From Citricoccus sp. K5 (GTDB lineage: Bacteria > Actinomycetota > Actinomycetes > Actinomycetales > Micrococcaceae): a stretch of 64,000 nt of DNA. Where the stretch lies: contig NZ_LR732817.1 of the NCBI RefSeq assembly GCF_902506195.1, positions 3,439,407 to 3,503,406 of the forward strand. The letters run 5' to 3'. The position numbers and the translations under genes were made by a program. The notes beneath the pieces are model-generated. The model worked only from the letters and a program-made list of their open reading frames with translations, was not told the DNA's origin and ran no database searches. Positions 27,142 through 63,304 of this stretch are shown piece by piece (within the stretch, counting starts at the first letter, position 1; each line of letters starts with the position of its first letter).

Positions 27142-28281
27142 ATGTCGCTACACATTCCTGAGTTTCCTTTCGACTCTTCGCTGACGATGGCCGTCTTCGA
27201 TCTCGAACGATTGCGTGGTGACTTGGCCATGACGGATACGGACCCGGAGCTTCTAGGACAGATACACCAGGTGCTGCAACTGGTCACCAGCATGACGAGC
27301 GCCCGCATCGAAGGAAACCGCACCACGGTTCTGGATGTCGTGACCGAGAAGGAGCAATCGGACGGCTTCCAGTATTCGGACTCCGTGCAGGAGATCATCA
27401 ATTTGGAGAAGGCCTCGGAGTTCATCGACGAGCACGTCGAGCCGGGAGTGCCACTGACCCAGATGTTCATACGCGAGCTGCACCGAATCGCCGTCGAGGG
27501 GCTCGAAACCGAGGGGGATCGCACCCCCGGTTCCTACCGCACCATGCCGGTGGCCATCTCGGGTGCTAAGCACGTTCCTCCCGGCCCGGACCTGATCCCC
27601 CTGCTGATGGGCGAGCTCGCCGACTTCATCAACGCCGAACGGCCTGGAAACCTGGACCTAGTGGCGACGGCCGTCTCCCATCATCGGTTCCTGTGGATCC
27701 ACCCGTTCGGGAATGGTAATGGTCGGGTGGCACGGTTGCTCACCTATGCAGTGCTGGTCCAGCAGGGATTCACCCAGACAACCAGCTTCCGCGCTTTGAA
27801 CCCGACTGCGGTTTTCGGTGCCGACCGAGAGCGGTACTACGAGCACCTTGCCGATGCGGACACCTATCAGGACATTGGCCTTGTGCGCTGGTGTGAGTAT
27901 GTGTTGCTCGGACTCCGCGATGACCTGACGCGAGTGAAGTCACTGGGCGAGGCGAGCTTCGTCCGTGCACGTGTGCTATTACCGGCGATTGACCGTCTGC
28001 TGCGGTCGGCACAGATTAGCGTGCCAGAGGCAGCGGCCCTGAGTACCGTGGCGGAGCGCGGCATAGTGAAGGCGAGTCACCTTGCGGAGGTGTTTCCCGG
28101 CTCTTCATCGACGCGCAGCCAACTGATCCGTGGACTCGTGGACCGAAGACTCCTCGGACGATTGCCGGAATCACCGCGGTCATATCGTTTGAGACTGGAT
28201 GCCGGTCCGTTGGTGTTGACCGTGATCGGACAACTGGAGGAGTTGGGCTTCGTCCCCGCCATTATGCGCGGGGCCATCTGA
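27142..28281 (+). CDS. Fic-domain protein (predicted AMP-transferase) with winged-helix tail
   Basis: The 379-residue product has the intact Fic motif HPFGNGNGRVAR at 187-198. SARIEGN at 53-59 matches the autoinhibitory (S/T)xxxE(G/N)N helix of class II Fic proteins, so activity is probably self-restrained. A Fic N-terminal domain (about 15-100) precedes it and a DNA-binding-like region (about 290-365) follows, with TRSQLIRGLVDRRLLGRLP as the likely recognition segment. Class II Fic proteins transfer AMP to protein targets; some act in conflict or stress. It stands alone, convergent to the DUF2075 gene, at the edge of a helicase/nuclease stretch. Confidence 0.88.
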   Translation: MSLHIPEFPFDSSLTMAVFDLERLRGDLAMTDTDPELLGQIHQVLQLVTSMTSARIEGNRTTVLDVVTEKEQSDGFQYSDSVQEIINLEKASEFIDEHVEPGVPLTQMFIRELHRIAVEGLETEGDRTPGSYRTMPVAISGAKHVPPGPDLIPLLMGELADFINAERPGNLDLVATAVSHHRFLWIHPFGNGNGRVARLLTYAVLVQQGFTQTTSFRALNPTAVFGADRERYYEHLADADTYQDIGLVRWCEYVLLGLRDDLTRVKSLGEASFVRARVLLPAIDRLLRSAQISVPEAAALSTVAERGIVKASHLAEVFPGSSSTRSQLIRGLVDRRLLGRLPESPRSYRLRLDAGPLVLTVIGQLEELGFVPAIMRGAI

Positions 28282-54127: not shown

Positions 54128-55006
54128 CTATCCCCGGCGGTAGGTCTGGATGACCTGCGAGTCATCTTTTCGGTCCCAACCGGACTTCTGAGCGGCCCGG
54201 TACTTCGCCTGTGCTGCCGTGATCATCGGTGCATCGAATCCCAGATCGTCAGCGATCTCCTTCACCAAGGTCGAGTCCTTGACGAAGATGCCGATCGTGC
54301 TGGTCACCTCTGCCTCGAGGCCCTGGAGCATGCGCGGGCCACGTTCGGAGAGCATCCACGATGCGCCTGCGCCGCCGGCCACGGCGGAGAAGACCTTCTC
54401 CGGGTCCAACCCCAGCTCCTCTGCCAGGGCCAGGGCCTCGGCTGCCGCGACGATGTGCACGGAACAGAGCAGTTGGTTGACCGCCTTGTAGGACTGCCCC
54501 TGGCCGATCTCTGCACCGCAGTCGATCACTGTTCCCAGGGCGTCGAGAACCGGCCGGATCTCCTCGACCACTGATCGTGGGCCGGAGGCGAACAAGCGCA
54601 GGTCCCCGGTGATGGCCCGAGCGACGCCGCCGGTGACGGGGACATCCACCACGCGCACGGACGGCGGCGCCTCGTCCGCCACGTCCTGCACGGCGCGGGG
54701 CCCCACGGTGCTCATCACCAGCAGGACCGCACCATCTCGCATGCGCCCGAGGACGCCGTCGTCGCCCAACGCCGCTGTCCGCAGTTGATCGGGCGTGGCA
54801 ACCATGCACACCACGACGTCGGCCTCGGCCGCAGAGTCCGGCGCCGGTTCCACGCTCAGACCCTGGACGGCCGCCTCCTCACGTCGGGCGGCGGACGGAT
54901 CGACTCCGGTGACCTCGAACCCCGCGGCGAGAAGTTGCCGGGCCATGGGCAATCCGATGGCGCCAATGCCGATGAACGTGATGCGGAGCGGGGAAGCGGA
55001 GGGCAT
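54128..55006 (-). CDS. NAD(P)-dependent dehydrogenase, 3-hydroxyisobutyrate/L-threonate type
   Basis: The 292-residue product starts at ATG 55006, which has AGGAG 5 bases upstream. Motifs are RITFIGIGAIGLPMARQLLAAGF (Rossmann), VVDVPVTGGVARA (substrate binding, about 120-131) and GQGQSYKAVNQLL with catalytic Lys174. The family oxidises beta-hydroxyacids including 3-hydroxyisobutyrate, tartronate semialdehyde, 6-phosphogluconate-like acids and L-threonate. It is 44 bases downstream of the GntP permease gene on the same strand, a pairing known from threonate/erythronate operons. A sugar-acid substrate is likely. Confidence 0.86.
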   Translation of the reverse strand: MPSASPLRITFIGIGAIGLPMARQLLAAGFEVTGVDPSAARREEAAVQGLSVEPAPDSAAEADVVVCMVATPDQLRTAALGDDGVLGRMRDGAVLLVMSTVGPRAVQDVADEAPPSVRVVDVPVTGGVARAITGDLRLFASGPRSVVEEIRPVLDALGTVIDCGAEIGQGQSYKAVNQLLCSVHIVAAAEALALAEELGLDPEKVFSAVAGGAGASWMLSERGPRMLQGLEAEVTSTIGIFVKDSTLVKEIADDLGFDAPMITAAQAKYRAAQKSGWDRKDDSQVIQTYRRG

Positions 55007-55050
55007 GGGGACTCCTGGGGAATGGTGTGGATTGGGGGGCGGAGGAGCGA

Positions 55051-56463
55051 TCAGAGGAAGAGCTCGAGCAGCAGGCAGACGGCCAGGCCGATGACAGCGA
55101 AGATGGACTGCGCCAGGGTGTAGATCTTGAAGGTTCCCTTGGTGGTGAAACCGAGCATCTGCTTGAAGATCCAGAACGTGTTGTCGGTGACGTGTGCGCC
55201 GAAGGCCGCGCCGGTTCCGGCGGCCAACAGGATCAAGATGGCCGGTGCATCGATGGATCCCATGATGGGCGCGAGCAGGGCTGCCGCGGTGATGGCAGCT
55301 ACTGATGCCGATCCCTGAGCCATCCGCAGGATGGCGGCCACGGTCCACGTCAACAGGACCGGAATCGCCGCATTGGCCTGGAACAGGGTCGCCAGCATGT
55401 CGCCGATGCCTACCTCCGTGATCACCTGTCCGAGAGATCCGGCCACGCCCGTGAAGAGCAGGATCGAGCCAGAGGTCTGGGCTCCCTTGGTGATCAGCTC
55501 GTCGATGCCGTCACGCTTGACGGTGGGGATTGCCAGGATGATGCCGATGAGCAATCCCACGAGCAGGGCGACCACGGGACTTCCGAGGAATCCGAGGAGG
55601 GGGATGTCCTGACCGAGGATGCCAGTGACGGTATCCAGGACGATGAGCAGGATGGGCACGATGACCGGAAGCATGGCGATGAGCAGGGGAATCTGCCGTG
55701 TCCGGGTCTCCACGGCTACGGAGCCGGCCTGAATGTCCGTGGCTTCGGCGACGTCGCCCGCGTCATGGCTCATGAGGCGGGTGCGCTCCTCTTCGAGGGA
55801 CTCGCCGAAGATGGAGTCGTCGAAATGGGGATCCAGATCCGTGGCCGGATTGAAGATCTTCCGCATCAGCAGGTCGTGAAGGAAGATGCTGGAAATGATG
55901 AAGAAGATCCCCAGGGGAATGCCCCAGATCAGCATGGTGCCGAAGTCCACGCCCAGAGGGCCGGCAACGGCGACCGCGGCGACGCCGGGGACCACGATCA
56001 GCAGGCCGACCTCGAGCCCGATGGCCAAGGATCCGGCCAGGGTCGCGAGACTCTTGCCGGTCCGCTTGGCGATCGTGCCGGCCATGGGCGCCAGGATCAC
56101 CAGGGCCACATCGAAGTAGATCGACGGGAAGACGATGCCCGACGTCAAACCCAACACATAGGGCGACTTCTTGGGACCGACGAGTTTGAGCAGACCGTCC
56201 ACCACTCGTTGCATCGTGCCGGTGGCAGACAACGTGGTGCCGATCATGACGCCGAAGCCGATGATCAGTCCCACTTCAGCCATGAGATTGCCGAAGCCGA
56301 CATTGACGGCCTCGACGGATTCAGTGAAACCGAGGCCGGCCGCGACACCGAGGTACAGCGCCCCAGCCACGATCGACACGACAGGGTTGATCTTCGCCCA
56401 GACGATCATCAGAACGATGCCGATGACAGCGATGGCGAGATGGACGAGGACGGCAATGTCCAT
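55051..56463 (-). CDS. GntP-family sugar-acid:H+ symporter
   Basis: The 470-residue product starts at ATG 56463, with GGAGA 6 bases upstream. It has about twelve membrane helices and the GntP signatures GFGNLMAEVGLIIGFGVMIGTTLSATG, GLTSGIVFPSIYFDVALVILAP, LRMAQGSASVAAITAAALLAP and FGAHVTDNTFWIFKQM. A hydrophilic central loop (about 205-245) separates the halves. It imports gluconate-like acids. A perfect 20-bp palindrome 57 bases upstream is its likely operator. Confidence 0.9.
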   Translation of the reverse strand: MDIAVLVHLAIAVIGIVLMIVWAKINPVVSIVAGALYLGVAAGLGFTESVEAVNVGFGNLMAEVGLIIGFGVMIGTTLSATGTMQRVVDGLLKLVGPKKSPYVLGLTSGIVFPSIYFDVALVILAPMAGTIAKRTGKSLATLAGSLAIGLEVGLLIVVPGVAAVAVAGPLGVDFGTMLIWGIPLGIFFIISSIFLHDLLMRKIFNPATDLDPHFDDSIFGESLEEERTRLMSHDAGDVAEATDIQAGSVAVETRTRQIPLLIAMLPVIVPILLIVLDTVTGILGQDIPLLGFLGSPVVALLVGLLIGIILAIPTVKRDGIDELITKGAQTSGSILLFTGVAGSLGQVITEVGIGDMLATLFQANAAIPVLLTWTVAAILRMAQGSASVAAITAAALLAPIMGSIDAPAILILLAAGTGAAFGAHVTDNTFWIFKQMLGFTTKGTFKIYTLAQSIFAVIGLAVCLLLELFL

Positions 56464-56519
56464 GTCTTCTCCGTAACGGTAACGCCGGTGAGGGCCGGCA
56501 AGCGGACGCTGGTCGAGTG

Positions 56520-56539
56520 GTTGACGGTTAACCGTCAAC
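56520..56539. promoter_or_regulatory. Operator 1, perfect 20-bp palindrome GTTGACGGTTAACCGTCAAC
   Basis: All 20 bases are self-complementary. The site lies 57 bases upstream of the gntP start. Related copies occur at 57487, 57572 and 60625, all at promoters of this island, so it is most simply the binding site of the FadR-type GntR protein encoded at 56728. Confidence 0.8.
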
Positions 56540-56727
56540 GGAACTAGTCGTGAAGTGTGTCACAGCGAATACCGGGTGCGCAAGGGCGCGGCGGAAGAAG
56601 GACGGAGCGTCGGGATGCGCGGCACAAGACGGCCTGCGGAGGTGCGCGTGGGGGATGGCGCAACGGGTGGGGAGGCCGGAGCGGGGAGGGGAGAGGCCAG
56701 GCGGCCGGCGTCATCGCCCCGGGTGGA

Positions 56728-57387
56728 TCAGGAGACGAGGTTGGCGGCAGCCTCGTCCATGTGGGCAAGGATGTGGTCCGCCGCCGCCGCTGCATCCCCG
56801 GCGGCGATGACATCCGCAATGGCGGCGTGCCGGTCGACCCGCATGTTCCCTACGGCGCGATCCGTGCCGGCCCACATGAAGGACATGCGTATCGACCCCT
56901 CCAAGGCTGTCCACGAGTGCAGCAGCACGGCGTTGTCGGTGAGCTGGCACAGGATGCGGTGGAAGTTCAGGTCGGCCTCGATGCGCTCCTCGAGTGTGGA
57001 GCCCACTGCACTCTCCATTGCCTGGACGGCGGCACGGAGGGCGTCGACGGCCGCCTCTCGATGGCTGGCCTGGCTCAGGATCCTGACCGCCAGGGATTCC
57101 AGGGCGGCTCGGACGGCGAAGATGTCCAGGATCTCCTTGGTGTCCAGGCTTCGGACGGACAGTCGGCCGCGCTCGCCGGCGGTGATCAGCCCTTCCTGCT
57201 GCAGTTGTCGCATGGCCTCCCTCAGGGTGCCGCGGCTGATCTGCAGCTGTTCGGAGATGTCCTTCTCGACCAAGTGGGTCCCCGGCTGCAGTTGCCCGGT
57301 GGTGATGGCCTTGCGCAGTGCGGACAAAGCCTGCTGTCGCAGGTTCGTCTTGGCCAGGCCGGTCAGGGCCGCGGTCGGGATGCTCAT
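56728..57387 (-). CDS. GntR-family regulator (FadR subfamily) of island 3
   Basis: The 219-residue product starts at ATG 57387. It has an N-terminal winged helix (about 10-75: PGTHLVEKDISEQLQISRGTLREAMRQLQQEGLI, GRLSVRSL) and an FCD-type helical domain with ADLNFHRILCQLTDNAVL, MRVDRHAAIADVIAAGDAAAA. The gene lies between the gntP unit and the divergent transketolase genes, in the middle of the four palindromes. It very probably represses all units and is relieved by a sugar-acid intermediate. Confidence 0.88.
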   Translation of the reverse strand: MSIPTAALTGLAKTNLRQQALSALRKAITTGQLQPGTHLVEKDISEQLQISRGTLREAMRQLQQEGLITAGERGRLSVRSLDTKEILDIFAVRAALESLAVRILSQASHREAAVDALRAAVQAMESAVGSTLEERIEADLNFHRILCQLTDNAVLLHSWTALEGSIRMSFMWAGTDRAVGNMRVDRHAAIADVIAAGDAAAAADHILAHMDEAAANLVS

Positions 57388-57486
57388 CGGGAGGTCCTTA
57401 GCAGAATCGTGGACACGGGTGCAGGGTGGAACGTCCTGGCCGGCATGGTGCTGGCCAGGCGCGCGACCTGTTGGTCCCCGATCATA

Positions 57487-57506
57487 CGTGGCGGTTAACC
57501 GTCGAC
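57487..57506. promoter_or_regulatory. Operator 2 (variant palindrome) upstream of gntR
   Basis: GGCGGTTAACCGTC is the preserved centre; the right arm AACCGTCGAC differs from operator 1 by one base and the left arm by three. It is 100 bases before the gntR start, suggesting autoregulation. Confidence 0.65.
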
Positions 57507-57571
57507 GCGGTGCCTGCGCGCTGTGTGCCGGAAGCGGCAAGACCCTGTCTTGTGGCGAACGGAGTGACGTG

Positions 57572-57591
57572 ATTCACTGTTAACCGTCAAC
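57572..57591. promoter_or_regulatory. Operator 3 (variant palindrome) upstream of the transketolase genes
   Basis: The right arm AACCGTCAAC is identical to operator 1; the left arm ATTCACTGTT keeps seven of ten bases. It is 85 bases from operator 2 and about 90 bases before the transketolase start. Confidence 0.65.
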
Positions 57592-57682
57592 ATTGAACTT
57601 GGCGTGGCGGCTGCGTGGTCCAGCATCGGCCGCCTCTCCGTCCAGCGTCCGTGTCAGGACCACAGCATTCGAGGTGAAGCTC

Positions 57683-58546
57683 TTGCCATCAACCACAGAA
57701 CCGGAGCCGGTGGAGATTGAACGACTTCAACGGATCAAGGAGGCTGCCTTCCGGATCCGCACCAACGCCCTGATCCAGGGCGAAGTCCAGGGCCAGGGGT
57801 ATATCGGCCAGGCCCTGGACATCGCCGACGTACTCGCCGTGCTCTACGCCGATCAGCTCCACCTGCGTCCAGAAGAGCCGGAGTGGGAGGGGCGGGACCG
57901 CTGCCTGCTGTCCATCGGTCACTATGCGATCGCGCTGTATGCCGCCCTGGCCGAGGCCAAGTTCTTCCCGGTGGAGGAACTGGAGACCTATGCCACGGAC
58001 GATTCCCGCCTGCCGATGTCCGCCATGGCCTCGTATACCCCAGGGGTGGAGATCTCCGGTGGATCTCTCGGTCACGGTCTGGTGATCGCCAACGGCGTGG
58101 CCCTGGGGCTGAAGCGCAAGGACAATCCTGCTTTCGTCTACAACATCCTCTCCGACGGGGAGCTCAACGAGGGTTCAACCTGGGAGGCTGCCGCTGTGGC
58201 TGCCCACCACGAGCTGGACAACCTGATTGCGATCGTCGACTTCAATGACCAGCAGGCTGACGGAAAGAGCCAGTCCATGCTGGGTATGGAGCCCATCGAG
58301 GACAAGTTTCAGGCATTTGGGTGGGAGACCCGCCGCGTGGATGGCAACGACGTCGCGGCCGTCCTTGCCGCCTTGGAAGAACTCCGCGGCTGGGAGGGGA
58401 CCCAGCCCCGGTGCCTGGTGGTCAACACCAAGCTCGGCAAGGGTGTCGACTTCCTGGAGGAGCGGGAGAAGCTGCACTTCATGACGGTCGCCGCAGACGA
58501 ATGGAAGACCGCCCACGAACGACTGAAGGAGTCATCCCAGGCATGA
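57683..58546 (+). CDS. Transketolase N-terminal (thiamine diphosphate) subunit
   Basis: The product is about 287 residues. TTG 57683 is preferred since GAGG lies 8 bases upstream; GTG 57674 is possible. It carries the ThDP domain only: GQGYIGQALDIADVLAVLYAD, LSIGHYAIALYAALAE, ISGGSLGHGLVIANGVALG, and the ThDP/metal motif LSDGELNEGSTWEA followed by NLIAIVDFNDQQADG. Split transketolases like this pair with a second subunit, here the next gene, whose start overlaps its stop (ATGA). Split enzymes serve specialised sugar pathways such as apulose catabolism. Confidence 0.87.
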   Translation: MPSTTEPEPVEIERLQRIKEAAFRIRTNALIQGEVQGQGYIGQALDIADVLAVLYADQLHLRPEEPEWEGRDRCLLSIGHYAIALYAALAEAKFFPVEELETYATDDSRLPMSAMASYTPGVEISGGSLGHGLVIANGVALGLKRKDNPAFVYNILSDGELNEGSTWEAAAVAAHHELDNLIAIVDFNDQQADGKSQSMLGMEPIEDKFQAFGWETRRVDGNDVAAVLAALEELRGWEGTQPRCLVVNTKLGKGVDFLEEREKLHFMTVAADEWKTAHERLKESSQA

Positions 58547-59580
58547 ATACCCTCTCGAATTCTCCCGCGGCGGCCCCGAAGAAGCGGCTGACGTCCGATG
58601 CCATGAGCGCTTCCCTCGCCAAGGAGGGGCAGCGGGTCACCGCCGCCCCTCTCGGCCACGCCCTGGTGGCCTTGGCTGAGCAGGATGAGCGGATCCTGGG
58701 CCTGTCGGCCGATCTGGCCAAGTACACCGACCTGCATATCCTGCGTGATGCCATGCCTGATCGCTTCTATCAGATCGGCATGGCTGAGCAGGCCCTCTTG
58801 GGGGCGGCGGCAGGCCTGGCCATGGAGGGGTTCGTCCCATTCGCCTCGACCTACTCGGTGTTCGCGACCCGGCGAGCCTATGACTTCCTCTGCCTGGACA
58901 TCGCCGAGGCCAACCTCAACGTGAACATGGTGTGTGCCCTGCCCGGTCTGACCACCGGCTACGGCCCATCCCATCAGGCCACGGAAGACGTGGCGATGCT
59001 GCGCGGAATGCCGAACCTGACCATCGTGGATCCCTGTGATGCGGTGGACATCGAACAGGCGGTGCCGCAGTTGGCCGCCCATGACGGTCCCACATACACG
59101 CGCATCCTGCGCGGCAAGGTGCCCCGGGTGTTGGACGAATACGACTACACCTTCGAACTGGGCAAGGCCAAGATGATCCGCGGCGGTTCCGAGGTGCTGC
59201 TGATCTCCACCGGCCTGATGACGGAGCGTGCCCTGGAGGCGGCCCGCGAGCTGGAAGCAGACAACGTCGATGTGGCCGTGTTGCACGTGCCGACTCTGAA
59301 GCCGCTGGACGAGGCCACCATCCTGCGGGAGCTGGCCCAGGACCGCCTCGTGCTGACCTGTGAGAACCACACCATCATCGGAGGGCTATTCGACGCGGTT
59401 GCCCACGCGGCTGTTCGCGAGGGGATCTTCCGTCAGATCACCCCGATCGGTCTGCCCGACGAGTTCCTCGACGCCGGAGCCCTGCCCACGCTGAACGACC
59501 GGTATGGCGTGTCGACGGCCAAGATCTCCGAGAGGATCAAATCCCTGCTGAGTCCACGGCACACCCAACGCGTGGACTGA
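58543..59580 (+). CDS. Transketolase C-terminal (pyrimidine-binding and C-domain) subunit
   Basis: The product is 345 residues from ATG 58543. Motifs: ERILGLSADLAKYT, FYQIGMAEQALLGAAAGLAMEG with the catalytic Glu that activates ThDP, PGLTTGYGPSHQATEDVAMLRGMPNL (phosphate/substrate loop) and the C-terminal TCENHTIIGGLFDAVA. It completes the enzyme with the preceding subunit. Two convergent terminators follow. No sugar kinase is nearby, so the substrate may be phosphorylated elsewhere or used as a free keto-sugar or keto-acid. Confidence 0.87.
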   Translation: MNTLSNSPAAAPKKRLTSDAMSASLAKEGQRVTAAPLGHALVALAEQDERILGLSADLAKYTDLHILRDAMPDRFYQIGMAEQALLGAAAGLAMEGFVPFASTYSVFATRRAYDFLCLDIAEANLNVNMVCALPGLTTGYGPSHQATEDVAMLRGMPNLTIVDPCDAVDIEQAVPQLAAHDGPTYTRILRGKVPRVLDEYDYTFELGKAKMIRGGSEVLLISTGLMTERALEAARELEADNVDVAVLHVPTLKPLDEATILRELAQDRLVLTCENHTIIGGLFDAVAHAAVREGIFRQITPIGLPDEFLDAGALPTLNDRYGVSTAKISERIKSLLSPRHTQRVD

Positions 59581-59600
59581 CGCGTCAAAGGAACGCGAGA

Positions 59601-59632
59601 GGGGCTGGACGGAGGAGTCTCCGTCCAGCCCC
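59601..59632 (+). terminator. Terminator of the transketolase operon
   Basis: GGGGCTGGACGGAG (59601-59614) pairs perfectly with CTCCGTCCAGCCCC (59619-59632) across a four-base loop, 21 bases after the stop. Confidence 0.88.
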
Positions 59633-59680
59633 TCGTCTCGTTCTCACGCACTTGACACCCGCTTCGATCCGTACAGCACT

Positions 59681-59722
59681 ACGGCGCCCGAACGCTGGGA
59701 TTCCCCAGTGTTCGGGCGCCGT
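59681..59722 (-). terminator. Terminator of the SDR gene
   Basis: A 19-bp stem (ACGGCGCCCGAACGCTGGG, 59681-59699, with 59704-59722) has one G-U pair and a four-base loop. It lies 18 bases beyond the SDR stop on the minus strand, back to back with the transketolase terminator. Confidence 0.88.
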
Positions 59723-59739
59723 TGTGCCACTGACACACG

Positions 59740-60513
59740 TCAGTGCATGTGGCTGCCACCGTTGACGTCCAGGGTGACGCCGGTCAGGTAGGCGGACTCC
59801 TCCGAGGCCAGGAACGTGATGGCTGCAGCGACCTCCTCGGTCGTCGACGTGCGGCCCACGGGGATGTCCCGGGCGATGGCCGCTTCCTGCTCCGGAGTGC
59901 TGCCGACGCGGATGTTGGTGTCCACTGCACCCGGGGTCACGGCGTTGACGGTGACTCCAGTCGTGCCCAGCTCCCGGGCCAGCGCCTTGGTGAAGCCGAG
60001 GATCGCAGCCTTGGCCGCGGAGTAGGGGACCTTGCCGAAGACGCCGCCGCCACGTTGGGCTGAGACGGAGGACATGTTCACGATCCGGCCCCAGCCGTTC
60101 TCGATCATCGCTGGGAGGAAGGCCTTGGAGACGAGGTAGGTGCCGGTGGCGTTGACGTCCATGACCTGGTGCCACAGTTCCACGGTGGTCTCCAGGAAGG
60201 GAACCGGGGAGGTGATGCCGGCGATGTTGACCACCGCGCCAACCGGGGGCAGGCTGCCGGCGGCCACGGCTGATGCCACGGCATCGTGCGCCCTGCCCAC
60301 GGCGGATTCGTCGGCCACGTTGATCTCATGCCCGAAGGCGGGCGCCCCATACTTGTCGGCGATGTTCTGGGCGACTTTCGCGGACTTCTCGCCATCGAGG
60401 TCCAGGATCACGACTCCCCACCCCTCGCGGGCAAAGCGTTCGGCGGTGGCCACTCCGATGCCCTTCTCCGAGGTGGCGCCGGTGATGACAGCGGTGCGTT
60501 GGATACTCGACAT
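59740..60513 (-). CDS. Short-chain dehydrogenase/reductase of island 3
   Basis: The 257-residue product starts at ATG 60513 with AGGAG 5 bases upstream. Classical SDR motifs are present: VITGATSEKGIGVATAERF (cofactor TGxxxxxGIG), DLDG (Asp, NAD preference), VNIAGI, VNATGTYLVSK, SSVSA, PYSAAKAAILGF (catalytic Tyr-Lys), and NAVTPGAVDT. The Asp after beta-2 points to NAD. It probably oxidises a polyol or sugar-acid hydroxyl before or after the transketolase step. Operator 4 lies 112 bases upstream. Confidence 0.9.
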   Translation of the reverse strand: MSSIQRTAVITGATSEKGIGVATAERFAREGWGVVILDLDGEKSAKVAQNIADKYGAPAFGHEINVADESAVGRAHDAVASAVAAGSLPPVGAVVNIAGITSPVPFLETTVELWHQVMDVNATGTYLVSKAFLPAMIENGWGRIVNMSSVSAQRGGGVFGKVPYSAAKAAILGFTKALARELGTTGVTVNAVTPGAVDTNIRVGSTPEQEAAIARDIPVGRTSTTEEVAAAITFLASEESAYLTGVTLDVNGGSHMH

Positions 60514-60624
60514 GATGCTCCTCAAATGGTCAGTTGCCAGGAGGCGGCTGATGCTCCATGGCGGGCAATGGCGGCGCCCAAGGGGGCGCTGCTGAAACGT
60601 TGTGCGACACATCACGTTACGGCA

Positions 60625-60644
60625 GTTGACTGTTAACCGTCAAC
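60625..60644. promoter_or_regulatory. Operator 4 (near-perfect palindrome) upstream of the SDR gene
   Basis: GTTGACTGTTAACCGTCAAC differs from operator 1 at a single base. It lies between the SDR gene and the divergent alpha/beta hydrolase gene (start 60685), so it may control one or both. Confidence 0.78.
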
Positions 60645-60684
60645 GTAAACGCGGAAGGCGGACACGGTGCATCCCTGAGAAGAT

Positions 60685-61425
60685 GTGCTCGTGAATCCGC
60701 AACAGACTTCCGTGGCCGCTGACCCGTCTTCCCTCTCGAACGAGCTTCCTGTCCCCGCGCCTGTGGACCATGTCATCGTGTGCCCCGGAGGTGGCTATGT
60801 CGGCTACGCAGAGAACGAAGCCGACCCCGTCGTCGCGTGGCTTCGTCAGCTGGGTCTGTCCGCGAGCGCCTTCCGGTATCCCGTACACAGCCGGCACCCC
60901 GCTCCCCTGGACGCGGTCAGGGCCGAGGTTGCCCGGATCCGGGGCCGCGGGACCCGACGCGTCGCTCTGATGGGGTTCTCTGCGGGTGGCCATGTCGCTG
61001 GCCATGCCGCTCTCACGGGAACGGGGCACGAGCGCGTCGACGCTGCCGTACTTTGCTATCCGGTGGTGTCGATGGAGGTCGATGCCCATGAGGGTTCTCG
61101 GCGAGAGCTGTTGGGGGATCCCTCCGATGCAGAGCAGAGGTCAGGAACATCTCTGGAGCAGTTGGTGGCCGCGGGTGCGCCTCCATTCTTCCTCTGGCAC
61201 ACCGCTGATGATTCATCGGTGTCCGTGCGGCACTCGTACCTGTTGGCCGAGGCGCTGTCGCGGCACGGAGTTCCCCACGCGCTGCACGTCTTTCCCAAGG
61301 GGGAGCATGGTCTAGGACTGGCGGTCGGAAGCGGAGAACCTGAAGCCTGGACCGCTCTCTGCGCCGCGTGGTTGGCGGCGCAAGGATGGCTGAAGACGGG
61401 AAGGGCCGGCTCTCTGGACGACTGA
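60685..61425 (+). CDS. Alpha/beta hydrolase (BD-FAE/acetylxylan-esterase-like)
   Basis: The 246-residue product has the alpha/beta-hydrolase core: VDHVIVCPGGGYVGYAENEADPVVAWL (oxyanion region), ALMGFSAGGHVAGHAAL (nucleophile Ser in GFSAGG), FFLWHTADDSSVSVRHSY (Asp) and FPKGEHGLGL (His). It resembles small carbohydrate esterases that remove acetyl or acyl groups. The start is GTG 60685 or GTG 60691; no strong ribosome site decides. As it begins 41 bases from operator 4, it may be part of the island 3 regulon and deacylate its substrate. Confidence 0.82.
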   Translation: MLVNPQQTSVAADPSSLSNELPVPAPVDHVIVCPGGGYVGYAENEADPVVAWLRQLGLSASAFRYPVHSRHPAPLDAVRAEVARIRGRGTRRVALMGFSAGGHVAGHAALTGTGHERVDAAVLCYPVVSMEVDAHEGSRRELLGDPSDAEQRSGTSLEQLVAAGAPPFFLWHTADDSSVSVRHSYLLAEALSRHGVPHALHVFPKGEHGLGLAVGSGEPEAWTALCAAWLAAQGWLKTGRAGSLDD

Positions 61426-61448: not shown

Positions 61449-62045
61449 CTAGCTCCAGAGCGTGGCCAGGGCGTCGGCTGCGGCGTGCAGATCCTGGGGA
61501 GGCGTCTCATCATGGGTCTGCGTGGCCAGGGCAAGGATGAAGCCGTGGATCAGGCGGGCCAGGGAGTCGCTCGTGACGGCCGTGGCCGGAACGCCCTCGT
61601 CGAAGGCACGTCTCGTGAGGGCCGCGATGGCTTCGTAGTCCCGTTCGCGTTGGTCCGCCACGATGCGGCCGGACTCGGTCCCGTGGTCCTGGGGGCCGAC
61701 GGTGGCGGCGAGGGCCACCAGGCATCCCCGGGGGTGGGAGTCATCGAACTGCTCGTCGATCGAACGGTGCAGAAGCTGTGTGAGGGCCTCGCCGGCAGGG
61801 ACAGCATGGCTGGCGGAGATGATGCTGACCACGCTCCCGGGCCGCGAGACATAGTGCTCGATCACGCGCCCGAACAGCCGGTCCTTGGAGCCGAATGCGT
61901 GGTAGAGGCTCGCAGAGGACAGGCCCATGGCCTCCCGGAGCTGGCTCATCGAGGTGCCCTCGTACCCCTGGCGCCAGAAGAGCTGCATGGCCTCTTCCAA
62001 TGCCGCCTGTTCCTCAAAGAGTCTCGGACGCCCCGCCACTCGCAT
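61449..62045 (-). CDS. TetR-family transcriptional regulator
   Basis: The 198-residue product has an N-terminal HTH (about 10-55: ALEEAMQLFWRQGYEGTSMSQLREAMGLSSASLYHAFGSKDRLF, broken into helices) and a helical effector domain with PRGCLVALAATVGPQ, a pattern of the YcdC/NemR-like branch that includes a conserved Cys in RGCL. It is divergent from the Old Yellow Enzyme gene, an arrangement like nemR-nemA, where electrophiles are sensed by Cys. A palindrome in the gap supports direct control. Confidence 0.88.
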   Translation of the reverse strand: MRVAGRPRLFEEQAALEEAMQLFWRQGYEGTSMSQLREAMGLSSASLYHAFGSKDRLFGRVIEHYVSRPGSVVSIISASHAVPAGEALTQLLHRSIDEQFDDSHPRGCLVALAATVGPQDHGTESGRIVADQRERDYEAIAALTRRAFDEGVPATAVTSDSLARLIHGFILALATQTHDETPPQDLHAAADALATLWS

Positions 62046-62164: not shown

Positions 62165-63304
62165 ATGACTGCGACGCCTGCGAGCGAAGCCACGCTGAAC
62201 GCGCCCTATGGACTGCGGGGGCTTGACCTGCCCAACCGGGCGGTCCTGGCCCCGATGACGCGGATCAGCGCGCACGGTGACGGCCGGGCGACGGAGAGGA
62301 TGCGGGACTACTACCGGTCCTTCGCCGAGGGCGGTTTCGGCCTGCTCGTGACGGAGGGGATCTACCCGGACACCGCCTACAGCCAGGGGTACCTGGACCA
62401 GCCGGGTCTGGCGACGCCCGAGCACGTGGAGTCCTGGGTCCCCGTCACGGCGGCCGTCCACGAGCACGGCGCCTCGATCATCGCGCAGCTGATGCACGCC
62501 GGCCCCCAGGGCCAGGGCAATCCCCATGTCTCGGGATTGCGCTCCGCCTCGGCGGTCCGTGCCCGCGGGCAGCAGGCCGGCATGTACCGGGGCAGCGGAC
62601 CGTACGAGCAGCCGGAGGCGCTGAGTGTGGAGGAGATCGGCGAGGTGATCTCATCCTTCGCCGCAGCCGCCGTGCGGGCCCGAGATGCCGGCTTCGACGG
62701 TGTGGAGATCCACGGTGCCAACGGCTACCTCGTGGACGCGTTCCTGACGGACTACCTCAACGAGCGGACGGACGGCTATGGCGGTTCGCCGATGGCGCGG
62801 ACCCGCGTGGCGCGGGAGATCATCGAGGCCGTCCGCGCCGCCGTCGGGAACGACTTCGTGGTGGGGATCCGCATCTCGCAGGGCAAGGTCAGCGACGCCA
62901 CCCACCGGTGGTCTGGGGGAGTGGCGGAGGCCGAGACGGTCTTCGGTGCCCTCGCCGGTGCCCCCGTGGATTACCTCCACACCACCGAGTGGAAGGCCAA
63001 TGCGCCCGCGTTCCCGGACGAGGACGCCCGCTCACTGGCCCAACTGGCCCGCGAGTTCGCCCCGGGGCTGACCGTCATCGCCAACGGTCACCTGGACACC
63101 GGCGCCGAGGCGGCACAGGGCCTCGTCGAGGGAGGTGCTGACCTCGTCGCGATCGGCAAGGCGGCCCTGGCCCAGCACGATTGGCCGCGGCGAGTGCAGC
63201 AGGGTCGCCAGCTGCTCGACCCCCTGGCGCCGAGCGCCTTCGGGGAACTGGCGACCATCCAGGACTGGGAATTGCGGGTGGCCGAGCCGGTTCCAACGAG
63301 CTGA
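62165..63304 (+). CDS. Old Yellow Enzyme family NADH:flavin oxidoreductase
   Basis: The product is 379 residues from ATG 62165. It has an FMN TIM-barrel: RAVLAPMTRISAHGDG, IIAQLMHAGPQGQGNPHVSG, AVRARDAGFDGVEIHGANGYLVDAFL, NERTDGYGGS, GIRISQGKVSDATHRWSGG and VIANGHLDTGAEAA. Such enzymes reduce activated alkenes, nitroesters or quinones. The usual QLxHxGR is QLMHAGPQ here, so the Arg is replaced. Its divergent TetR neighbour and the operator at 62106 suggest induction by electrophiles. Confidence 0.88.
   Translation: MTATPASEATLNAPYGLRGLDLPNRAVLAPMTRISAHGDGRATERMRDYYRSFAEGGFGLLVTEGIYPDTAYSQGYLDQPGLATPEHVESWVPVTAAVHEHGASIIAQLMHAGPQGQGNPHVSGLRSASAVRARGQQAGMYRGSGPYEQPEALSVEEIGEVISSFAAAAVRARDAGFDGVEIHGANGYLVDAFLTDYLNERTDGYGGSPMARTRVAREIIEAVRAAVGNDFVVGIRISQGKVSDATHRWSGGVAEAETVFGALAGAPVDYLHTTEWKANAPAFPDEDARSLAQLAREFAPGLTVIANGHLDTGAEAAQGLVEGGADLVAIGKAALAQHDWPRRVQQGRQLLDPLAPSAFGELATIQDWELRVAEPVPTS

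Follow-up and report, generated by a model that had tools for sequence, protein, structure and literature searches.

A cluster-specific palindrome, a probable GntR operator, beside a GntR/FCD regulator and a remodelled split transketolase-like enzyme in Citricoccus sp. K5

In a stretch of 64,000 nucleotides from Citricoccus sp. K5 (contig NZ_LR732817.1, positions 3,439,407 to 3,503,406; the whole stretch is called the window here, and positions are counted from its first letter), a 20-base palindrome recurs at the promoters of a gene cluster for a permease, dehydrogenases, a GntR-family regulator and a two-subunit enzyme of the transketolase superfamily. The palindrome at 56520-60644 is real and specific to this cluster, and our reading, to which we give a probability of roughly 0.85, is that it marks a local and probably self-regulated GntR regulon around the enzyme genes tkN and tkC. 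Such a regulon, governed by a local FCD-GntR protein, is ordinary in kind; a specialist would find the remodelled split transketolase at its centre more surprising. The sites and the regulator are listed here, scored where applicable with a matrix trained on the sites of relatives.

56520..56539, no strand: operator, perfect palindrome, before gntP (matrix 23.2 bits, second best in the window)
56728..57387, minus strand: GntR/FCD transcriptional regulator, proposed binder of the four sites (Pfam GntR 48.7 bits, FCD 75.1 bits)
57487..57506, no strand: weak palindrome, four mismatches, before gntR (matrix -0.9 bits)
57572..57591, no strand: operator, three mismatches, before tkN (matrix 20.4 bits, third best in the window)
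60625..60644, no strand: operator, one mismatch, between the genes for a short-chain dehydrogenase/reductase (SDR) and a hydrolase (matrix 32.0 bits, best in the window)

The sequence GTTGACGGTTAACCGTCAAC is an exact palindrome at 56520-56539 (0 mismatches), and its further copies carry one mismatch at 60625-60644, three at 57572-57591 and four at 57487-57506. A sequence-only reading of the window had placed all of these correctly and had counted four operator copies; three of them (56520, 57572 and 60625) are firm, and 57487 is weak as a full operator, its support consisting of its position and of similar sequences with five mismatches before gntR in the Kocuria loci L014 and L015. The sites stand 57 base pairs (bp) before the start codon of gntP, 100 before that of gntR, 92 before that of tkN, 112 before that of the SDR gene and 47 before that of the hydrolase gene. 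None of 100 shuffles of the window gave three matches at up to three mismatches (mean 0.00). The whole genome was then scanned (3,879,757 bases, or 3.88 Mb, in 9 contigs) with the reversed palindrome as control. With up to three mismatches the 20-mer occurs at three places, all inside the cluster, and the control at none, so that the palindrome is not common at unrelated promoters. The inner 14-mer is less exclusive: up to two mismatches it finds 15 places (control 1), of which the three with at most one mismatch belong to the cluster (56520, 57487 and 60625) and the twelve with two mismatches are the tkN site and 11 others elsewhere in the genome. When positions 7 and 14 of the 20-mer are left free, up to three mismatches give four places genome-wide, namely three cluster sites (0, 0 and 2 mismatches) and a weak place at window position 28215 (3 mismatches).

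The same specificity is seen among relatives. We sought a generalised palindrome, GTTGACNGTTAACNGTCAAC, with up to one mismatch in 295 genomes from this family, again with a reversed control, and scored the presence of tkN by protein search (E up to 1e-60). The enzyme gene is present in 62 of the 295 genomes. The palindrome occurs at 21 places in 19 genomes and every one of these lies 83-8409 bp from tkN, all but one at no more than 2.3 kb; there is no copy in the 233 genomes without tkN, and the reversed control has no match in any of the 295. Together with the scans of the genome itself, this supports a set of operators that is compact, confined to the cluster and adjacent to a GntR gene of the FCD type; the condition that the sequence-only reading had named as refuting its proposal, a palindrome common at unrelated promoters, does not hold. 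Among seven other genomes of the genus, cluster and site occur in one only (G133). In the clusters that we fetched, at up to one, two and three mismatches respectively, the site is found in 18, 38 and 49 of 61 from the family and in 18, 22 and 26 of 40 from other actinobacteria, and in none of 33 proteobacterial clusters at up to three; family loci shuffled once each (61) gave no site. Three loci (L014, L015 and L016) duplicate L152, L151 and L154 and are excluded from the gene-family counts, the site counts and matrix, and the pocket alignment; L089, L090 and L093, which lie outside the enzyme clade, are set apart, and L092, without a C-subunit match, enters none of the alignments. Peptide patterns served to choose loci L014-L093, which are biased to one state of the H100 loop because one pattern (PMSAMASY) spans it; a protein search that used no patterns of this sort supplied the 61 family loci, and these agree with them. 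Both sets were nevertheless picked by similarity to the window enzyme, the loci counted having about 55% identity or more.

The operator matrix was trained on 61 sites from relatives (up to two mismatches), the window and L154 being left out, and it still puts 60625, 56520 and 57572 first, second and third in the window. The commonest operator form among relatives, its consensus, is GTTGACTGTTAACAGTCAAC. At positions 7 and 14 the perfect copy of the window has G and C, and the training sites have T or A (and complements), with G/C in 0 of 61; by this comparison the perfect 20-mer GTTGACGGTTAACCGTCAAC is a local variant of the operator. Sites with up to two mismatches fall outside predicted open reading frames (ORFs) in 57 of 64 cases, though ORFs cover 83% of bases, and the operator is kept at promoters across relatives while transporter and gene order vary. 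In Geodermatophilaceae loci (L026, L040, L050 and similar) we observed palindromes that overlap with a 7-bp shift, like iterated GTYRAC units. Such units one step beyond the 20-mer are found in 17 of 75 and 12 of 75 clusters, against an off-register rate of 3.5%, and most of these loci are from Geodermatophilaceae or others outside the family; an iteration of these hexamers around the operator is suggestive only.

The predicted regulator scores above both Pfam cut-offs, with a GntR winged helix at the N-terminus and an FCD domain at the C-terminus, so that the label 'FadR type' given to it from the sequence holds in this broad sense. Among 102 aligned GntR rows, three of them the duplicates L014, L015 and L016, the recognition-helix residues S51, R52, T54, R56, E57 and R60 are present in all, as are D139 and H143 of the FCD domain; H187 and H209 are present in 100. 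The conserved Asp/His set of FCD domains is a metal and ligand site. A gntR homologue occurs in 61 of 61 family clusters; in 60 its identity is 59-83% and its distance from tkN at most 2.1 kb; in the remaining locus, L210, the homologue has only 41% identity, lies 5.7 kb from tkN, and there is no site. At residue 42, the start of the DNA-binding region, the window protein alone has lysine (1 of 102 rows), which may possibly be tied to the drift at operator positions 7 and 14. The arrangement resembles that of local FCD-type GntR regulators of sugar-acid genes, such as SCO1678 of Streptomyces coelicolor: a GntR protein of the FadR subfamily lies next to genes for a permease and a dehydrogenase and would be expected to repress locally. 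It differs in the operator GTTGACTGTTAACAGTCAAC and in the tkN-tkC-SDR gene set. Of the open-access papers that contain the operator letters, none is by its title about a bacterial operator or promoter, and among the open-access papers listed none describes the cluster by title and start of abstract, which is weak evidence of absence.

A second element accompanies the operators.

56549..56564, no strand: CRP/GlxR-like box, one mismatch to TGTGA-N6-TCACA (motif scan)
57563..57578, no strand: CRP/GlxR-like box, two mismatches, overlapping the tkN operator
60601..60616, no strand: CRP/GlxR-like box, two mismatches (motif scan)

No such box is found at the weak 57487 site. With up to two mismatches a box adjoins 38 of 60 operators, where shuffled flanks gave a mean of 4.4 (standard deviation 1.9, largest 10), and within the family 37 of 38 operators have it against 3.1 for shuffles. 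The genome has 12 matches to HTH_Crp_2, two of them over the cut-off and one strong (70 bits). This suggests a second control at the operators by a CRP-like regulator, mainly within the family.

In weighing a self-regulated local regulon, several observations count against it. Autoregulation of gntR through 57487 is poorly supported because the site before gntR is weak. No site within three mismatches is present in 12 of the 61 family clusters and 14 of the 40 other actinobacterial ones. The cluster counts are not independent, because the clusters are related, and gntR and the site each track the actinobacteria; the stronger control is the absence of the palindrome from the rest of the genomes rather than these counts. 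Outside the family the CRP-like box is not enriched at two mismatches (1 of 22 against 1.3), with 19 of 22 against 6.4 at three. A scan of 56400-60800 for sigma-70-type promoters found none, which leaves an overlap of operator and promoter putative. An origin of the palindrome by chance, or as a general genomic motif, is nevertheless negligible: the window shuffles, the scans of the genome itself and those of the 295 family genomes all speak against it, and we reject it on the genome scans. That another regulator reads the palindrome, whether a GntR paralogue or a protein of another family, with the cluster GntR a mere neighbour, is conceivable in that more regulators are encoded nearby and elsewhere, for example a TetR-family protein at 61449-62045. 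We consider this very improbable, as the site is confined to clusters of this kind, every family cluster has its gntR homologue with an invariant recognition helix, and the 33 proteobacterial clusters, one of which has a GntR-like match, lack the site altogether.

The enzyme at the centre of the proposed regulon is encoded by two genes that overlap by ATGA.

57683..58546, plus strand: tkN, N (pyrophosphate) subunit of a transketolase-like thiamine diphosphate (ThDP) enzyme, TTG start (Pfam Transketolase_N 133.5 bits)
58543..59580, plus strand: tkC, C (pyrimidine and C-terminal) subunit of the same enzyme (Transket_pyr 114 bits, Transketolase_C 88.2 bits)

Its best full-length profile is transketolase. 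We aligned the pocket with E. coli TktA and with the transketolase, the second split transketolase and the DXS of the same genome. The cofactor residues D155, N185, E411, H66, H261 and H473 are kept in 134 of 134 related rows, and all 134 have Y26, S100, Y385, Y434, R440, L461 and a deletion at 469 with a tyrosine beside it; H26, H100, S385, H461 and D469 of transketolase are thereby lost throughout. In every row R91 has become G or A, I189 A, G262 F and E468 Y, and R358 is kept in three rows only; 132 rows have R520, and the remaining two have a gap there. The enzyme thus lacks the donor contacts H26 and H100 and the D469 contact of functional transketolase, and it does not retain the phosphate contacts R358, S385, H461 and R520 as a set, R520 alone being mostly kept. 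Median pairwise identity is 0.68 (2000 sampled row pairs). The more distant rows L089, L090 and L093 retain H26, H100, S385, H461 and D469, and in a quick tree of 45 rows, several of whose outgroup branches are very long and were flagged by the tree program, a branch with SH-aLRT 100 separates the 38 sampled clade members from the rest. Fold and cofactor residues support membership of the transketolase superfamily; as a functional label transketolase is doubtful, and in the name 'split transketolase', used by the sequence-only reading, it is not to be taken literally. Quite probably, to judge by these residues, this is not a normal phospho-sugar transketolase, and it probably catalyses another reaction. 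The genome also encodes an ordinary transketolase and, as a separate observation, a second and different split transketolase about 10 kb from its sole Dak1-domain match (loci L101, C1:2930182-2930646, minus strand, and L224, C1:2939965-2940891), near which the genome scans found no copy of the palindrome.

Several of these changes have been made deliberately in other transketolases. H100 is the donor residue separating transketolase from DXS, and H100F or H100L raises the use of pyruvate (PMC7661550). Adding S385Y to an H100L and D469T variant raised kcat 630-fold with pyruvate and 3-formylbenzoate, and docking of the S385Y variant leaves the carboxylate towards R520; in another mutant background S385Y led to loss of activity with pyruvate (PMC10787763). 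A tyrosine at 385 would clash with the phosphate of phospho-sugars, and the binding of these is described as impeded in the Y385 crystal structure (PMC5073344). H26Y and D469Y invert enantioselectivity (PMC3657141), and TktA R358I/H461S/R520Q is better on 5-ketogluconate (PMC12016104). Compared with the laboratory-evolved E. coli enzymes, S385Y and H26Y are identical here, H100 and D469 are lost in both, and the clade retains R520, as does TK-1, the best of the pyruvate variants. The differences are that ours is a natural two-subunit clade, known from sequence alone, with S100 and with the extra changes H461L, R91 to G or A, I189A, G262F and Y440R. As aligned, the natural clade unites changes that engineers assembled one by one.

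The nearest solved relative is the split transketolase of Carboxydothermus hydrogenoformans (PDB 6yaj/6yak), which is split at the identical domain border and shares the cofactor residues; it keeps a histidine at position 100, changed here, and uses hydroxypyruvate (PMC7661550). In the alignments it retains 26, 461 and 469 as well, all changed in the window enzyme. The DXS encoded in the Citricoccus genome has H100 replaced, the one-residue deletion at 469, Y434 and R440 in common with the window enzyme, and differs in its split and in the residues at 26, 385, 461 and 520. Pyruvate as donor does not follow from these likenesses; with S100, a larger or acid-bearing donor is just as possible.

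What the enzyme does is best approached through three readings. The least conventional, which we put forward as a tentative possibility, is that the clade comprises natural transketolase-like enzymes with an engineered-type pocket, which would take a donor without a hydroxymethyl group (pyruvate-like, or another 2-oxo acid), hold an unphosphorylated acid partner on R520 and R440, invert stereochemistry through Y26, and so catalyse an undescribed step of an organic-acid pathway that is widespread in actinobacteria and proteobacteria and under the GntR operator in actinobacteria. A rather unlikely alternative, slightly less so than the next, is cleavage of a keto-aldonate, for example 5-ketogluconate formed by the SDR, with transfer of a C2 ketol unit to an unphosphorylated acceptor. 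GntP and galactonate-type transporters and an SDR adjoining the enzyme genes would suit this, as would the DAK and RpiB-like genes of many actinobacterial clusters, which would match a product that is a triose or a tetrulose. The TktA variant that is better on 5-ketogluconate (PMC12016104) has, like the clade, lost R358 and H461. Unlike that variant, the clade keeps R520, and the loss of H100, the contact for the donor hydroxymethyl group, argues against a ketol donor; the best profiles of the SDR are FabG-like, with no gluconate 5-dehydrogenase among the best 25 of 228 profile matches. Unlikely, too, is a catabolic transketolase of the ordinary kind, which would transfer a ketol unit from one sugar phosphate to another, with pocket changes that only tune it. 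In favour of this, the enzyme has each of the three transketolase domains and keeps the cofactor residues, R520 is nearly universal, R440, common to two other split transketolases and DXS, could hold an anion, and the nearest solved relative is itself a characterised split transketolase (6yak/6yaj). Set against this are the uniform changes at H26, H100, S385, H461, D469 and R91 (134 of 134) and at R358 (131 of 134), the impeded binding of phospho-sugars with Y385 (PMC5073344), and the ordinary transketolase that the genome already has. Split transketolases of the apulose-4-phosphate or sulfoquinovose type, considered as leads to the pathway, were not adopted, because profile searches of eight cluster genes found no sugar kinase and most phosphate contacts are lost.

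The remaining genes of the cluster are listed next.

54128..55006, minus strand: HIBADH-family dehydrogenase (best NCBIfam L-threonate dehydrogenase, 233 bits, cut-off of 350 not reached; searched as 54131-55009, one codon earlier)
55051..56463, minus strand: GntP-family permease (Pfam GntP_permease 249 bits)
59740..60513, minus strand: short-chain dehydrogenase/reductase (profile searches)
60691..61425, plus strand: alpha/beta hydrolase (esterase), candidate regulon member (profile search)

The permease scores 222.5 bits against the NCBIfam gluconate:H+ symporter TIGR00791, under its cut-off of 292.75. The hydrolase, mentioned from the sequence as a possible regulon member, is a weak candidate: homologues occur in 39 of 295 family genomes, its own included, and among the fetched clusters in one only (L153, genome G258), where the gene is divergent from a palindrome with three mismatches. 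Counts of neighbouring families across the 134 loci are lower bounds, because the simple ORF caller found tkN in 93 of these loci, all of which have it: at least 95 have an SDR, 85 gntR (all actinobacterial), 81 an MFS family, 41 AP_endonuc_2, 34 a DAK kinase, 23 an RpiB-like isomerase, 18 HIBADH and 11 gntP. The transporters differ among clusters, being GntP, MHS-type MFS, galactonate-type MFS or TRAP, kinds of transporter whose cargo is mostly organic anions. The neighbouring SDR, DAK and isomerase genes point to hydroxylated substrates.

From the computed specificity and conservation of the operator, the co-occurrence of gntR with tkN, the CRP-like box, the gene content and the pocket changes we infer binding, repression, the class of inducer and the direction of the pathway as follows. 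A dimer of the GntR protein (56728-57387) would sit on the palindromes at the gntP-dehydrogenase, gntR, tkN-tkC and SDR promoters and repress them, until an organic acid, either substrate or intermediate, occupied its conserved metal site and released it from DNA; a CRP/GlxR-type regulator would probably add carbon-source control at the same promoters. The acid permease would import a hydroxylated organic acid, which the SDR (and the HIBADH-family enzyme) would oxidise, the SDR product being a ketone, and the two-subunit ThDP enzyme might then cleave or transfer a carbon-carbon unit, or join the ketone to a partner. The operator is a tight and portable mark, since every copy in the 295 family genomes sat at the tkN pathway; its acid might be sensed with the help of the regulator. 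For biocatalysis, a natural clade that has S385Y and H26Y but neither H100 nor D469 would be a starting enzyme already at hand, and a protein that profile libraries call transketolase would receive a fitting name.

Two relatives illustrate the range of arrangements. In Klebsiella grimontii (L031, 4757-8859) the pathway is minimal, consisting of a galactonate-type MFS transporter, SDR, tkN and tkC, followed by homologues of rhlE, dinG and ybiB. In clusters of the type of L171 (4174-11885), from the same family as the window, a gntR-tkC-tkN-MFS side faces a divergent AP_endonuc_2-SDR-DAK side with the operator between them. Beyond the hydrolase in the window, the TetR-family regulator gene is divergent from an ORF at 62165-63304 whose product resembles, by eye, an oxidoreductase of the old-yellow-enzyme type.

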